DNA of 64,000 nt from Roseimicrobium gellanilyticum (GTDB taxonomy: Bacteria; Verrucomicrobiota; Verrucomicrobiia; Verrucomicrobiales; Verrucomicrobiaceae): NCBI RefSeq assembly GCF_003315205.1, contig NZ_QNRR01000001.1:868001-932000 (forward strand), in the 5' to 3' direction. Of the stretch, positions 714-7,916 are shown one piece after another. The notes under the pieces are model-generated. The model saw only the letters and a program-made list of their open reading frames with translations, was not told the DNA's origin and made no database searches. Each line of letters opens with the position of its first letter. The first letter of the stretch is position 1. Position numbers and translations under genes: made by a program.

Positions 714-3092
714 ATGGTTGAGGAGTGGTTCTGGCAGAGCGCCACGGGTTCATGGCCGAAGATCGCGATCGCTCTCAGCGTGGCGGCTCTAGGGGTGTTG
801 TGGATTGCTTATCGCGGCGTGACGGGGCGTGCCTGGCGCAGGGAGGCGGCCATCCTTTGCAAGGTGCTGGTGTTTGCCCTGCTGTTGCTCATGCTCATGG
901 AGCCGATGGCCATGACCCGGGTGCCGAAGCCGGGGCAGAATGATGTGCTCATCCTCGCAGACGACTCTGCCAGCCTTGCTCTTCTCGACAGCACCACCGG
1001 AAAACCGGCAGGTGAACCGGTAAAGAAGGCTCTGCATCGAGATGCGTCGTGGATAAGAGAGGTGGAGAAGACTTTCCGGACGCATGCCTATTCATTTGAT
1101 GATCGGCTGCACGAGCGCACTCAGCTGGATGCCTTGAAGTTTGCGAGCATGCGTTCCGCGCTGGCTGGCAGTCTGGAGAGCCTACAGCAGCGATATCTGA
1201 GACAGCCGGTTGCCGCCGTGCTGCTCTTCACGGATGGCAATGCCACTGATGCGGCGAAGCTGGAGGAGATGATGGCGAATTCCAAGGCGTCCGCTCCCAT
1301 CTTTCCTGTTGTGACGGGCGTGCGTGAGGTATCGAGTGATCTGGCCTTGAAGAGCGTGGACGTCACGCAGACCCCCTTCGAAGATTCACCCGTAGCCGTC
1401 ACTGCGAAGATTGCCGCCGCCGGCCTTGGTGATACCGGTGTCTCCCTCGTGATTCAGGATGAGGCCGGCAAGGTGGTGAAGACGGAGAATCACAAGCTGG
1501 CCAAGGCCCAGACGGAGCACACGTTCCAGACCCGCTTCCGACCGGAGAAGATGGGTATCTCCTTCTTCAAGGTGTCCGTGGTGAAGGATCAGGCGGTGTC
1601 GCATCTGACGGATCCCGCGAAACTGAAGGAAGTGTCCGCCGAGGCCACGATGGAAAACAACCAGCGCTTCCTCGCGATTGACCGGCGTAGCGGGCCCTAT
1701 CGTGTGTTGTATGTGAGTGGCCGGCCGAATTGGGAGTACAAGTTTCTACGCCGCTCGCTGGAACCGGATGATGAAGTGAAGCTCGCGGCGCTCATTCGCA
1801 TGGCCAAGCGCGAGCCGAAATTCCAATGGCGGGGCAGGGAAGGGGAGACGAGCAATCCGCTTTTCCGTGGATTCAAATCGAACGAGCCTGAGGAGGCGCA
1901 ACGCTATGACCAGCCGGTGCTGAAGCGGCTGAATGTGATGGATGCGTCTGAGCTCGCGGACGGCTTTCCCAAGACGCCCGAAGAACTTTTTGGAAAATTC
2001 CGTGCGGTGGTCCTGGATGATGTGGAGGCGGAGTTCTTCACGCGCGAGCAGCTTGATCTGCTGGAGCGTTTTGTGAGTGTGCGCGGTGGGTCGCTGGTGA
2101 TGCTCGGTGGGCAGGAGTCCTTCCGGTTGGGCGGCTATGAGCACACGCCTGTGGGACGCATGCTCCCGGTGTATCTGGATCGGACTGGTGATGTGAGTCC
2201 TGCTGAGGAGGCGAAATTCAATCTTACGCGTGAGGGCTGGCTGGAGCCATGGATGCGCCTGCGCAACACGGAGCCGGAGGAGGAGTCGCGGATGGCATCC
2301 ATGCCTGCCTTCTATTCTGTGAATCAGAGTACGGCCATCAAACCTGGTGCCTCCATCCTCGCCACGGTTACGGATGCGCGAAGGAAGTCTCATCCTGCGA
2401 TGGTTGTGCAACGGTATGGCAATGGTCGTGTGGCTGCGGTGACGGTAGGCGACATGTGGCGCTGGGGTTTGAATGACCCGGCATCGCAAGCGGACATGGC
2501 GAAATCATGGAGGCAACTCTTCCGCTGGCTCGTGGTGGATGTTCCAGATCGCGTGGATATGCAGCTCAGCATCACACCTTCTGGTTCGCATGAGCTGGTG
2601 AAGCCGCAGGTGCGTGTGCGTGATCTCGCGTTCCGCCCGCAGGATGATGCCACGGTGAGCATCGAGATTCAGGAGCCGGATGGCGGGCGCATCTCTCAAG
2701 GGGCAGAGCCCGCGATGACAGAAGCGGGACTCTTTGAGATGTCTGCACATGCAGGTGCCCAAGGTGCCTACCGCGTGAAAGCCACGGTGAAGGACAGTGC
2801 CGGCGCGGTAGTCGGCGAAAGCAATTCGGGATGGGCGCTCAATCCAGCTGCGGAGGAGTTTGCGTCTCTGTTGCCGAATCGCCCGCTGCTGGAACGTCTC
2901 GCGGCCTGGAGCGGCGGGCGTGTGCTGACGGTGGATGAACTGGGCTCGTGGGCCTCGGAGCTTTCAGAGATCAAGATGCCCGTCATGGAAACGCGCACGG
3001 AACCTCTGTGGCATCGCTGGTGGGTGCTGGTGCTGCTGGTTGGGCTGTTGGGTACGGAGTGGTGGCTGAGAAGGAGGCAGGGATGGAGATGA
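714..3092 (+). CDS. vWA / glutamine-amidotransferase-like membrane protein
   Basis: A 792-residue integral membrane protein of unknown precise function. Two N-terminal hydrophobic helices (about residues 15-35 and 46-65) are followed by a von Willebrand A-like domain with a MIDAS-type DDSAS motif and the later strand AAVLLFTDGNATD. The middle contains a class-I-amidotransferase-like fold (VLYVSGRPNWEYKFLRRSL, then FVSVRGGSLVMLGGQESF), which lacks an obvious catalytic Cys. The C-terminus is a membrane helix (WWVLVLLVGLLGTEWW) with a basic tail, so the bulk should face the periplasm. The ATG at 714 is preferred to the GTG at 705 because GGGGAGG at 696-702 lies 11 bp from the ATG but only 2 bp from the GTG. 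The stop overlaps the start of the next gene, which suggests co-translation. Confidence 0.85.
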   Translation: MVEEWFWQSATGSWPKIAIALSVAALGVLWIAYRGVTGRAWRREAAILCKVLVFALLLLMLMEPMAMTRVPKPGQNDVLILADDSASLALLDSTTGKPAGEPVKKALHRDASWIREVEKTFRTHAYSFDDRLHERTQLDALKFASMRSALAGSLESLQQRYLRQPVAAVLLFTDGNATDAAKLEEMMANSKASAPIFPVVTGVREVSSDLALKSVDVTQTPFEDSPVAVTAKIAAAGLGDTGVSLVIQDEAGKVVKTENHKLAKAQTEHTFQTRFRPEKMGISFFKVSVVKDQAVSHLTDPAKLKEVSAEATMENNQRFLAIDRRSGPYRVLYVSGRPNWEYKFLRRSLEPDDEVKLAALIRMAKREPKFQWRGREGETSNPLFRGFKSNEPEEAQRYDQPVLKRLNVMDASELADGFPKTPEELFGKFRAVVLDDVEAEFFTREQLDLLERFVSVRGGSLVMLGGQESFRLGGYEHTPVGRMLPVYLDRTGDVSPAEEAKFNLTREGWLEPWMRLRNTEPEEESRMASMPAFYSVNQSTAIKPGASILATVTDARRKSHPAMVVQRYGNGRVAAVTVGDMWRWGLNDPASQADMAKSWRQLFRWLVVDVPDRVDMQLSITPSGSHELVKPQVRVRDLAFRPQDDATVSIEIQEPDGGRISQGAEPAMTEAGLFEMSAHAGAQGAYRVKATVKDSAGAVVGESNSGWALNPAAEEFASLLPNRPLLERLAAWSGGRVLTVDELGSWASELSEIKMPVMETRTEPLWHRWWVLVLLVGLLGTEWWLRRRQGWR

Positions 3093-4132
3093 GAAAGAAC
3101 AGGGACAAGGGAAAAGGGACAAGGGATAGGATGGGTACCATTGGTGCCTGCCTTGTAACGGTGTGCGCCCTGTTGGGAGTGGTATCGCCCTTGATTGCGC
3201 AGACGAAGCAGGAACCTGAAGCACGGGAATTGCGGGTGCTGATCGTGATGGGCGCGCAGGGAACAGAGGAGTACGGGAAACGCTACCGCGAAGAAGTGCA
3301 GCTTTGGGAAGATGCGTGCAAAAAGGCGGGGGTGGAGGCGCAGACGATTGGTGTGGCTGCTGAGCAGAAGGAGAAGCCGGATGCCATGCTGCTGCAGGAA
3401 ACGCTGAAGGCGCTTTCTGCAAAGCCCACGCAGCCGCTGTGGCTGGTGCTGATCGGGCATGGGACGTTTGATGGTCGCGATGCCCGCTTCAATCTGCGAG
3501 GGCCGGACATCATGGCGCCTGAACTGGCGGGTTGGTTGAAGCCCTTCAGCGGGCAGGTGGCCTGCATCCAGACGGCGTCGGCGAGTGCGCCGTTTCTGAA
3601 GGCGCTTGCGGGGCCGAATCGAGTGCTCATCAGCGCGACCAAAAGTGCGGATGAGGTCTTCTACACACGATTCGGGCAGTTCTTTGTGAAAGCTATCGGC
3701 GGTTCAGAGGAGGCGGATTTGGATCGCGATCATCAAGTGTCCCTGCTGGAAGCATTCCTGTGGTCGTCAAAGCAGGTGGATCGATTTTTTGAGACAGAGC
3801 AGCGCCTCGCCACAGAGCATGCGTTGATTGAAGACAATGGCGACGGGATCGGTACGCGTGCGCAAGCGTTTCTAGGCGTGCGTCTCGCGGAAGCACCTCC
3901 CGAGGGCAAAACGGCAGAAGGGTTGGTTGCGCGTCAATGGGCGCTGCTGCTGAGTGATGCTGATGCACAGCTGACCGATACGCAGCGGACGAAACGTGAT
4001 GCGCTGGAACGTGAAGTGGAAGCGCTGAAAGGGAAGCGCAAGGAACTGGGAGACGAGGCCTACTACACCAAACTCGAAGCACTGATGCTGGAGATATCAC
4101 GCATCTACGAGTCGCCGGACAAGGACACGTAG
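3083..4132 (+). CDS. secreted caspase-fold (C13-like) protein, probably lacking the catalytic Cys
   Basis: A 349-residue protein with a signal peptide (GACLVTVCALLGVVSPLIAQ, about residues 21-40). Its clan-CD layout is recognisable: a strand ending in LVLIGHGTFDGRDA with the expected His at about 126, then a strand VACIQTASASAPF at 159-171. The residue after the acidic/Asn position, normally Cys, is Ala or Ser here. A Ca2+-binding-like loop follows at 212-223 (DLDRDHQVSLLE, residues spaced as D-x-D-x-D), then EDNGDGIGT near 250. The start chosen has AAGGAGG at 3071-3077 upstream and overlaps the preceding gene by 10 bp. It is probably a partner of the vWA protein. Proteolytic activity is doubtful. 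Confidence 0.75.
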   Translation: MEMRKNRDKGKGTRDRMGTIGACLVTVCALLGVVSPLIAQTKQEPEARELRVLIVMGAQGTEEYGKRYREEVQLWEDACKKAGVEAQTIGVAAEQKEKPDAMLLQETLKALSAKPTQPLWLVLIGHGTFDGRDARFNLRGPDIMAPELAGWLKPFSGQVACIQTASASAPFLKALAGPNRVLISATKSADEVFYTRFGQFFVKAIGGSEEADLDRDHQVSLLEAFLWSSKQVDRFFETEQRLATEHALIEDNGDGIGTRAQAFLGVRLAEAPPEGKTAEGLVARQWALLLSDADAQLTDTQRTKRDALEREVEALKGKRKELGDEAYYTKLEALMLEISRIYESPDKDT

Positions 4133-4176: not shown

Positions 4177-6480
4177 TCACTGTATCACCTGGGCCGTTTC
4201 CCCTTTGGCTGGCATTGGCGTATGCTCCAGCTTGGCGAGGGCTTCCTTTACCAGCGATGCAGTGAGGGGCATGTCTGGATTGAGCTTGATAGGCTTATTT
4301 TGACCAGGAACATACAAGAGCCTTAGAGGAACGTAAGTGACCTTCAGCTTGGCCAGAGCCTGTTCGATCCTCGGATCAGGTTGCGTCCAGTCTGCGCGAA
4401 GCACTTCCACCTCGTGTTTGCGGAACTCATGTTGAAGAGAGCGGTCCTTGTATACATGCTGTTCCTGTTGAGCGGCCGCAGCCCACTGCGCGGTGAATTC
4501 TACGAAGACAGGCACCTTTTTGGAGCGCAATTCATCGACTGCCTCTGGAGCCCATGTCTTCCAGTCGAGCGAGGCTTGCGCTTTATCGCCTTTGATTGGC
4601 TTCGGCGCATGCTCCAGTTTGGCAAGTGCTTCCCTCACCAGTGAAGGAGTGTACGGGACGTCTGGATCAATGATCACCGGATCTTTTTGGCCAGGTATGT
4701 ACAGGACGTTGACCGGGATGGCGGACTTTTTGAGAAGAGCGAGTGCGTCCTCAATGCGGACATCTGGAGTGGTCCAGTCGGCACGGAGCAGTTCCACACC
4801 ATACTTGCGGAAGTCTGCTTGCAAGGCCTGGTTCTTGTACACCCACTTGTTGGCCTGGCAGGTGGCGCACCAGCGGGCGGTGAAGTCCACGAAGACGGGG
4901 ACGTTCTTTGCGCGCAGATCATCCACGAGCTCAGGTGACCACTCCTTCCACATGCCGTCCTTGGGACGTGGATAGGCCATCCAGAAACCAAAGACAAAGA
5001 CGAGCACGGTGAAGATGATGGCTTTCACCCTCGTTTTGGCGGGTTTGTCCGGCGTGAACCACCGGCCATAGATCCAGCAGGCGGCAGCAATGAAGACGAG
5101 CCCGATGAGGAGATCGCGCTGGCTGTATTCACCAATCAGGCCCATGAGCGACCAGGTGAAGTAGGCGGCGGCGGCAAGCATGAGGAAGGCCATGGCCTGC
5201 TTGAAGCTCTCCATCCAGGCGCCGGGGCGTGGCAATACGCGCAAGAGCCTGGGGAAGAAAGCCAGCACCAAAAATGGAAAGGCCAATCCCAAGGCGATGA
5301 CCGTGAAGAACACGAGCGAGGGCCATAAACTCAGACCAAGCGCGAACGTCAAGGCTCCCGCAAGGAAGGGCGCGGCACAAGGAGTGGCCACCAATGTCGC
5401 GAGGAGGCCCGTGAAGAACGAGCCCTTCAATCCCGACTTGCCGGTGAGTTCCATGCCCACGCCGGTGGTGGAGGTGCCCACCTCAAACACACCGGCCATG
5501 TTCAGACCGAAGATGAAGATGATGAGTACTACGATGAAGGAGAACCAGGGTGATTGAAGCTGGAATCCCCACGCAAGCTGCTCGCCGGCAGCACGCAGTC
5601 CCTGAAGCACGGCCACCAGCACCCAGAAGGAAATCAGGATGCCGAAAGTATAGGCAAGGCCATGGGCCAGCACACGTCTTGGATCTTCACCGCTTTGATG
5701 GACGATGCTGGTGACCTTGATGCCCAGTACCGGGAAGACGCATGGCATGATGTTCAGGATCAAACCACCCAAAAAGGCGAACAACAGCTGCTTGAAGATG
5801 TCGCCCACGGACATGTCGGAAAAGGACGTCCCGTCGCTGGCCTTGCTCTCCGTGGGTGTCGTGCCGTTGGTGGCATTGCTTTTCTCAGGCGTGGTCGATG
5901 TGGAGTCTCCCGCAGAAGCCGCCGCAGCAAACACGGAAGCTTGCGCAGCATCTGTCACTGCGGCATCCGCCACCGGCAGGGTGAGGGAGATTTGAAGCGT
6001 CGTGGGCTGGCAGGTTTGTGGATCACATACCAGAGCTTTCACTTCGCCTTCGAGCTTCACCTGCTCACCTGGCTTGATACCCGCAGGAGCGGTCAACCTG
6101 GCCGGAAGGTAGACAGTGTCTGAATAGCCTTGAGTCTTGGTGCCTCCAGTGGACTCGGTTTCATGGGTAGGAGGCCAGGGGAGGTCCTCGGCTTTCCAGC
6201 CTTCCGGAAGTTTCCAGTCGATTGTAGTGGGCAGGCCCGTGGCATCCGGTGGCAGGGTCTTGCCATAGGTGTGGTAGGTCGGCGCGTGCTGCAGCTTTAC
6301 TGCAACCCGGAAAGTGCCGCCGGGAGCGATGCTACTATGCTCAGATACCAATGAGGCGGTGACCGGCTCTTTCTTGCCTGCGGTGCCGGGCTTGAGCCCG
6401 GGGAGGTCGATGCCCTGGGCCATGATGGCGGCGGGCAGGAGCATGAGAAGTGCGAGAGAACGTAGCAGCGGACGAATCAT
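4177..6480 (-). CDS. dsbD: thiol:disulfide interchange protein DsbD with duplicated thioredoxin domain
   Basis: A 767-residue inner-membrane electron carrier that passes reducing power from cytoplasmic thioredoxin to periplasmic thiols. In order: a signal peptide; a DsbD-alpha-like domain with the Cys pair LVCDPQTCQP; an eight-helix membrane core with the two expected Cys-Pro motifs (NIMPCVFP and VATPCAAPF); and two successive thioredoxin-like domains of about 128 and 130 residues. The first (about 510-637) has an intact WCATCQ motif. The second (about 638-767) is clearly a copy (FVEFTAQW, HVYKD, EVLRADWTQPD, REALAKLEH-like end), but CATC is replaced by AAAA. The start MIRPLLRS gives a good signal peptide. 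Longer starts would run into the neighbouring CDGSH gene. Confidence 0.93.
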   Translation of the reverse strand: MIRPLLRSLALLMLLPAAIMAQGIDLPGLKPGTAGKKEPVTASLVSEHSSIAPGGTFRVAVKLQHAPTYHTYGKTLPPDATGLPTTIDWKLPEGWKAEDLPWPPTHETESTGGTKTQGYSDTVYLPARLTAPAGIKPGEQVKLEGEVKALVCDPQTCQPTTLQISLTLPVADAAVTDAAQASVFAAAASAGDSTSTTPEKSNATNGTTPTESKASDGTSFSDMSVGDIFKQLLFAFLGGLILNIMPCVFPVLGIKVTSIVHQSGEDPRRVLAHGLAYTFGILISFWVLVAVLQGLRAAGEQLAWGFQLQSPWFSFIVVLIIFIFGLNMAGVFEVGTSTTGVGMELTGKSGLKGSFFTGLLATLVATPCAAPFLAGALTFALGLSLWPSLVFFTVIALGLAFPFLVLAFFPRLLRVLPRPGAWMESFKQAMAFLMLAAAAYFTWSLMGLIGEYSQRDLLIGLVFIAAACWIYGRWFTPDKPAKTRVKAIIFTVLVFVFGFWMAYPRPKDGMWKEWSPELVDDLRAKNVPVFVDFTARWCATCQANKWVYKNQALQADFRKYGVELLRADWTTPDVRIEDALALLKKSAIPVNVLYIPGQKDPVIIDPDVPYTPSLVREALAKLEHAPKPIKGDKAQASLDWKTWAPEAVDELRSKKVPVFVEFTAQWAAAAQQEQHVYKDRSLQHEFRKHEVEVLRADWTQPDPRIEQALAKLKVTYVPLRLLYVPGQNKPIKLNPDMPLTASLVKEALAKLEHTPMPAKGETAQVIQ

Positions 6481-6551: not shown

Positions 6552-6812
6552 TCAGGAATCCTGAGGCGGCAGGTCGTTGTGGGACCCATCGCAATACGGT
6601 GGATTCTTTGTGTGCTTGCAGTTGCAGAGCCACACGCGGCGCTTTTCCGTGAGGGTGAATTTCAAAGGGGCGATGCCGGTCCCCTTGTGCGAGCCATCGC
6701 ACAGGGGTTGATGCCCTGAGCGACCACAACGACACCACCAGTGCACTCCGGCTTCGAGTTCCAGAGTCACGGGCATGGGTGAGGATGTTTGCGGTGTTGG
6801 CACGGGATTCAT
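6552..6812 (-). CDS. CDGSH iron-sulfur protein with two [2Fe-2S] motifs
   Basis: An 86-residue protein with two consecutive CDGSH motifs: WCRCGRSGHQPLCDGSH and LCNCKHTKNPPYCDGSH. Each carries the three Cys and one His that bind a [2Fe-2S] cluster, as in mitoNEET/Miner2-type proteins. It is a small soluble protein, probably in redox or Fe-S transfer. It lies 71 bp upstream of dsbD on the same strand, so co-transcription with this redox gene is possible. The ATG at 6812 is chosen because GGGAG lies 8 bp upstream. An earlier TTG at 6827 is also in frame. Confidence 0.88.
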   Translation of the reverse strand: MNPVPTPQTSSPMPVTLELEAGVHWWCRCGRSGHQPLCDGSHKGTGIAPLKFTLTEKRRVWLCNCKHTKNPPYCDGSHNDLPPQDS

Positions 6813-6869
6813 CTCCATCACTCCCAAAGGGTTCGATTGATGCGCGCCCGTGGATGTTTTGGATTCACC

Positions 6870-7916
6870 TCACACGGTATTTGGGATGCCTGCCACCTCG
6901 GCAATCAGCTTGGGACCGCGGTAGACGAGGCCACTGTAGACCTGCACGAGGGAAGCGCCCGCTTGCAGCTTCGCCTCGGCATCCATCTCGCCCATAATGC
7001 CGCCAACGCCGATGATGGGTGGTGGCGCTCCTTTGGCCTCACTCTTCAGGGCAAGAGCGAGGGTGGCAATCACGGCAGTGGACTGCCGCATGAGCGGCTT
7101 CCCGCTCAGGCCGCCAGCTTCTTTCCAAAGCTTGTTCTTTTTCACCCCTTCGCGGTCGATGGTGGTGTTTGTTGCGATGACACCTTCCATGCCCAGCTCT
7201 GCGAAGACCCTGGCGAGGACCTCGATTTGTTCTTCACCGAGGTCAGGGGCGATCTTCACCAGCAGGGGGCGATGCACGCCATGTGTCGTGGCCAGGCGCG
7301 CCTGCTCTTCTTTGAGTGTGCCGAGGAGACGGCGGATGGGCTCCTCCGCTTGCAGGTCGCGGAGACCCTTGGTGTTGGGAGACGAGATGTTCACCGCAAT
7401 GTAGTCCGCCACCTGGTAGGCCTTGCGCAGGCAGGTGAGGTAGTCATCCGCTGCGTTCTCCAGTGGTGTGTCGAAGTTCTTGCCGATGTTCACTCCGATG
7501 ATGCCGGTGCTCGTGCGCCGCTCCAGGCGATGCACAGCTTCATCGATGCCTGGGTTGTTGAAACCCATGCGGTTGATGATGCCCTCCTGTTCCACCAGGC
7601 GGAAGAGGCGGGGAGTGGGATTGCCGGGTTGCGGGCGAGGAGTGAGGGTGCCTACCTCCACATGGCCGAATCCCAAGGCGCTCCAGGCATCCACGGCAGA
7701 GGCAGACTTGTCCATCCCGGCGGCGAGGCCCACGCAGTTGGGAAATTTGAGGCCCATCACCGTGCGGGCTTTGGAGGGAGCAGGTTCCGGATCGGGCAAC
7801 ATGCCCAGCAGATGGCTGGCGCGCAGCAGCTTCACAGTCCATTCATGAGCCGTCTCTGCATCCAGTTGAAACAGGAGAGGACGGAGAATGGGGTAGAGGC
7901 GGTGAATGAGGGGCAT
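6870..7916 (-). CDS. pyrD: dihydroorotate dehydrogenase (quinone), class 2
   Basis: A 348-residue FMN enzyme oxidising dihydroorotate to orotate in pyrimidine synthesis and passing electrons to quinone. Class 2 features are visible. An amphipathic N-terminal extension (LIHRLYPILRPLLFQLDAE) inserts in the membrane and is followed by GLAAGMDKSA. RMGFNNPG comes next, then the catalytic Ser region NISSPNTKGL. The phosphate-binding end is IIGVGGIM and LVQVYSGLVYRGP. Its length fits the family. It stands 57 bp upstream of the CDGSH gene on the same strand. Confidence 0.96.
   Translation of the reverse strand: MPLIHRLYPILRPLLFQLDAETAHEWTVKLLRASHLLGMLPDPEPAPSKARTVMGLKFPNCVGLAAGMDKSASAVDAWSALGFGHVEVGTLTPRPQPGNPTPRLFRLVEQEGIINRMGFNNPGIDEAVHRLERRTSTGIIGVNIGKNFDTPLENAADDYLTCLRKAYQVADYIAVNISSPNTKGLRDLQAEEPIRRLLGTLKEEQARLATTHGVHRPLLVKIAPDLGEEQIEVLARVFAELGMEGVIATNTTIDREGVKKNKLWKEAGGLSGKPLMRQSTAVIATLALALKSEAKGAPPPIIGVGGIMGEMDAEAKLQAGASLVQVYSGLVYRGPKLIAEVAGIPNTV

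Follow-up and report, generated by a model that had tools for sequence, protein, structure and literature searches.

In the PDI family, a thioredoxin fold that does not catalyse is chained to one that does: PDI has the layout a-b-b'-a', in which neither b domain is redox-active and substrate is bound by b' (PMC3638393 and its reference list). The bacterial membrane protein DsbD usually consists of an alpha, a transmembrane (TM) and a single gamma domain, and in E. coli cDsbD it is Asp-455 that raises the pKa of the attacking cysteine (PMC3961690). Here a verrucomicrobial dsbD gene is described whose product carries, behind gamma, a second, gamma-like domain devoid of cysteine. Every part of this protein is known; the combination, i.e., a DsbD with an appended cysteine-free gamma copy, is not in the open literature that was searched (titles and abstracts on tandem thioredoxin domains in DsbD and on DsbD in Verrucomicrobia, subscription journals lying outside the scope), and it is so far found in one genome only.

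The gene lies within a window (the whole stretch of DNA that was analysed) of 64,000 nucleotides, and its features, in window coordinates, are as follows.

4177-6480, minus strand: dsbD, 767 residues with a signal peptide at the N-terminus (open reading frame and translation)
5983-6330, minus strand: alpha domain (Pfam DsbD_N, residues 51-166), with the cysteine pair of CDPQTC
5158-5787, minus strand: transmembrane beta domain (Pfam DsbD_TM, residues 232-441), with two cysteines (in MPCVFP and TPCAAP)
4576-4950, minus strand: copy 1 of the gamma domain, catalytic and thioredoxin-like (Thioredoxin_7; aligned with 41 relatives, all CxTC)
4858-4869, minus strand: CATC active site of copy 1 (translation)
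4564-4575, minus strand: short linker, ASLD, joining copies 1 and 2 (a low-confidence junction in the full-length model)
4180-4563, minus strand: copy 2, redox-dead thioredoxin-like domain, 128 residues (640-767), 60% identical to copy 1
4498-4500, minus strand: glutamate of copy 2 in place of the invariant aspartate six residues ahead of the first cysteine position (Asp-455 of E. coli cDsbD)
4471-4482, minus strand: AAAA replacing CATC in copy 2 (translation)
4321-4335, minus strand: cis-Pro loop of copy 2, in which the family's A-V/I-P-V-N has become Y-V-P-L-R (A77Y, N81R; proline retained)

The ATG of dsbD is at 6480 and its stop codon ends at 4177; mechanical ORF finding lengthens the gene to 6738, and the added part overlaps a neighbouring gene. 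This neighbour, directly upstream, encodes a double CDGSH-type iron-sulfur protein of 91 residues (6555-6827, minus strand) and sits between dsbD and pyrD (6873-7916, minus strand), the order of the stretch being the same in a congener (G001). Convergent with dsbD is an open reading frame of 394 residues (2948-4132, plus strand), which is conserved in the congener and has no Pfam match.

By Pfam the order of domains is DsbD_N, DsbD_TM and two of Thioredoxin_7, and the protein has what defines a DsbD: a cysteine pair in DsbD_N, two cysteines in DsbD_TM, and a C-terminal thioredoxin domain with CxxC. The alpha, transmembrane and copy 1 cysteine pairs are all present, in columns that are invariant across 29 aligned DsbD proteins. 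Against PRK00293, the NCBIfam model for the named DsbD subfamily, the protein scores 113.7 bits where the cut-off is 330, so that it is a DsbD by its domains and cysteines rather than a member of that curated subfamily; it likewise falls short of the model for the selenoprotein TsoB (NF045694; 166.9 bits, cut-off 805), and the window's dsbD gene contains no in-frame TGA. Because all of the relay's cysteine pairs are intact, and in view of what is established for DsbD, the electron relay should be independent of the extra domain: electrons would pass from cytoplasmic thioredoxin to the transmembrane cysteines, on to CATC of gamma, then to CDPQTC of alpha and finally to periplasmic clients, bypassing copy 2.

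That the last ~130 residues copy the preceding thioredoxin-like domain, as an earlier note on this DNA had claimed, is borne out by an alignment of the two copies that runs without a gap over 125 residues at 60% identity, and the coordinates that it gave for CATC and AAAA are exact, on the minus strand. Chance similarity is ruled out, a copy 2 query retrieving copy 1 at E = 8.8e-49, as is an assembly duplicate, since the copies match at only 38% of third codon positions. Both domains exceed the Pfam cut-off of 27 bits for Thioredoxin_7 (copy 1 at 52.9 and copy 2 at 38.1). Where copy 1 reads TGC GCC ACC TGC, copy 2 reads GCT GCG GCC GCT, and it contains no cysteine, in-frame stop or frameshift. 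A catalytic thioredoxin-like domain has CxxC or at least one redox-active cysteine or selenocysteine; copy 2 has AAAA, no cysteine and no TGA, so that a migrated cysteine or a selenocysteine is ruled out and, on the reading of its translation, thiol catalysis by copy 2 is excluded. An EcoRI-like GAATTC and a NotI-like GCGGCCGC occur 15 bases apart in copy 2 (4472-4500), GCGGCCGC lying inside the AAAA codons; as a trace of engineering they were rejected and read as a coincidence in GC-rich coding DNA, the flanks aligning to copy 1 throughout.

The loss extends well past the two cysteines. As a reference, 24 aligned positions that are invariant in 42 catalytic gamma domains were used, at which each catalytic relative departs either once or not at all. 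Copy 2 differs at seven of the 24 (D22E, C28A, T30A, C31A, N34E, A77Y and N81R, in domain numbering), so that AAAA is merely the centre of a wider active-site change. D22 and Asp-455 of E. coli cDsbD both precede the first cysteine by six residues. Seven of the ten active-site positions (i.e., the Asp26-like position, the W-CxxC-QxN segment and the cis-Pro loop) have changed, versus none of the 14 others (Fisher p = 3.5e-4, somewhat flattered inasmuch as the active-site set was chosen after the changes were seen, though on known thioredoxin anatomy). The two former cysteine codons (GCT in copy 2) match TGC at none of their three positions, and A77Y, N34E and N81R each require at least two base changes; the redox centre was therefore probably not lost recently.

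The fold appears to have been kept. In an AlphaFold2 model of copy 2 (pLDDT 88.4, pTM 0.82), strands and helices alternate as they do in thioredoxin, although its input comprised 38 relatives, all of them catalytic, and the model leans to their fold. Among PDB entries it is most like the E. coli DsbD C-terminal domains (2fwe/1vrs; Foldseek E 1.6e-6), with 2fwe superposing over 115 residues at an rmsd of 2.3 (VIA-align Z 13.4); after these rank thioredoxins and domains of the PDI family, including two that are redox-inactive, PDILT b' and ERp27. The cis-Pro position is retained, and copy 2 as modelled has a thioredoxin fold, in agreement with the earlier description of the domain as redox-dead with its fold preserved. 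The full-length DsbD model (pLDDT 77.5, pTM 0.49) is too weak to position copy 2 against copy 1.

Within its genome (7.93 Mb, 32 contigs) the tandem occurs once; a scan of genome contigs yielded only distant DsbD proteins with a single domain. The congener G001 (7,957,748 bases in one contig), the single other genome of the genus compared, has the same neighbouring genes on either side but one gamma domain, after which the protein soon ends. All 41 family loci that were read (L010-L050) have one domain each, with CxTC, and no other tandem was seen among 68 family genomes, nor was a copy like copy 2 found among 387 genomes of the order and 387 of the phylum (overlapping samples). The earlier note had looked to relatives for the same duplication and AAAA motif and had regarded relatives lacking the domain as telling against its reading; such relatives are what the congener and the other family members turn out to be, and because they have one domain only, AAAA as a conserved motif has no between-species support.

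In most genomes with two matches, these belong to different genes, located on other contigs. The exceptions in the order and phylum samples are one genome (G134) with a real tandem, the only one there, and three of genus g40 (G162, G183 and G338), in which a second thioredoxin-like match follows ~0.2 kb downstream of the match that ends a DsbD-sized frame (G162:C41:124541-125381, G183:C48:15605-16439 and G338:C427:3277-4036). In these three the second match has its own, shorter frame of 159-202 residues, and such an unfused neighbour gene could show how tandem forms originate.

The age of the duplication was estimated from codon models of three sequences with a shared synonymous clock, the TM region serving for calibration; because the two copies are saturated for synonymous change (dS > 2), both the dates and the values of omega are rough. 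Copy 1 is 89% identical in protein to the congener's domain versus 60% to copy 2, and four-fold sites with conserved amino acids differ at 28 of 40 when the copies are compared and at 26 of 55 when copy 1 is set against the congener. Duplication before the species split (lnL -2593.8) is favoured over a recent duplication after it (lnL -2597.2, the fit being pushed to the split itself). The simplest history is a duplication before or about at the split from the congener, followed by loss in the latter.

Under the model with duplication before the split, a free omega comes to ~0.18 for copy 2, versus a background of 0.044. Relative to this model (lnL -2593.8), making copy 2 neutral since the split gives -2608.0 and since the duplication -2613.6, so that under these clocked models neutrality is rejected by 14-20 log units. 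An unclocked model of six sequences rejects omega = 1 weakly (2 delta lnL 5.4), and in it copy 2 does not differ from the background; in neutral simulations run to the observed amino-acid divergence, ~5% of runs remained free of stops. The fold of copy 2 is thus probably under purifying selection, though part of this constraint may be older than the loss of the cysteines, the dead domain being known from one species. The earlier note's contention that the pattern is unlike random decay is supported by the freedom from stops and frameshifts, by the confinement of the changes to the active site and by the rejection of neutrality.

Computationally, then, the locus exhibits a duplication, the loss of every catalytic residue from one copy, retention of its predicted fold, constraint and a complete main relay. 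For what copy 2 does, the following sequence of events is proposed, to which we would give about an even chance. The gamma domain would have been duplicated in tandem within the gene, before or about at the split from the congener; the second copy would then have lost its entire redox centre while selection continued to purify its fold; and copy 2 would now be a non-catalytic docking or structural module situated behind gamma, presumably in the periplasm, with a putative docking surface that might hold partners of DsbD or steady the exchange between gamma and alpha. A more specific version, namely that DsbD of this lineage has a PDI-style dead gamma copy of its own, to which clients or partners dock and by which it selects or holds its clients, we regard as rather doubtful.

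Counting against a role as a module is the fact that the congener does without copy 2 at the syntenic locus, and a harmless domain that merely must fold would give much the same pattern. Hence it is nearly as likely, if still somewhat less than an even bet, that copy 2 is a tolerated relic without a job, its catalysis lost since a further active site was of no use or did harm, and its fold kept only since misfolding would destabilise or misplace DsbD. Such a relic would accord with the domain's absence from the congener and the whole family and with the fact that the positions preserved are those of the fold and include no known functional one; moreover, a new in-frame C-terminal domain can persist without function. 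It accords less well with a constraint that has held for no less than the synonymous distance to the split from the congener, nor has the tail domain been removed here, as a single stop could easily have done--although such a loss may have occurred in the congener.

Whichever role applies, copy 2 might instead have been acquired through recombination, with some other representative of the genus, outside the sample, donating its gamma domain; this concerns its origin, not its function, and can be combined with the other readings. That the copies have diverged further at synonymous sites than the two species have, and that the congener lacks copy 2, is what would be expected of such an acquisition, but in a domain tree copy 2 falls together with copy 1 and the congener's domain (support 97/96), and a C-terminal stretch, SLVxEALAKLEHxPxxxKGxxAQ, is common only to these three among the domains read, so that we hold this origin to be improbable. 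Most improbable is that copy 2 is a regulatory decoy that imitates gamma, binding alpha or a client but passing on no electrons, thereby competing with or shielding gamma and tuning DsbD: the fold and the conserved Trp ahead of the motif are kept, and the reactive residues have given way to alanine and, within the cis-Pro loop, to residues that are bulky or charged, but the cis-Pro loop and motif, which in 1VRS form the face of gamma that contacts alpha, are exactly what changed (A77Y, N81R, N34E), and mimicry of that contact is thereby disfavoured.

A docking or structural module remains the preferred reading, and against it the known systems compare as follows. Like DsbD, the protein has the alpha-TM-gamma order and every catalytic cysteine pair, and both of its C-terminal domains are related to DsbD-gamma; unlike the usual DsbD, it ends in an extra, cysteine-free gamma-like domain. 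Similar in outline is the verrucomicrobial DsbD of G134 (L065), which also has a second C-terminal thioredoxin-like domain without a normal CxxC. That tandem, however, is independent and unrelated: its second domain (G134:C4:175856-176215, in a plus-strand open reading frame of L065 from 1008) is 37% identical to its own first domain and has the motif W-TGA-L-S-A, in which UGA occupies the place of the first cysteine; in other respects its sequence is typical as far as a double stop. Three congeners of G134 have single domains. As far as sequence can tell, this may be a selenocysteine UxxA domain, and perhaps redox-active; the genome has a tRNA-Sec match above the cut-off (59.6 bits), and no clear hairpin was seen just after the TGA.

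Like the redox-inactive b and b' domains of PDI, PDILT and ERp27 (PDILT b' and ERp27 being among its structural matches), copy 2 is a non-catalytic thioredoxin fold chained to a catalytic one; unlike PDI b and b', to which it has no relation in sequence past the fold, it is a copy of its neighbour and belongs to a bacterial membrane protein. The likeness thus lies in the dead fold, the binding of substrates or partners by copy 2 being putative. If the domain has no job, it is a clean case of a domain that has lost its active site and yet is still folded. If it does have a job, it would be a bacterial parallel to PDI, where catalytic and dead thioredoxin domains likewise share one chain, and comparison with a close relative that lacks the duplication would be a direct route to asking what a redox conductor gains from such a dead domain.
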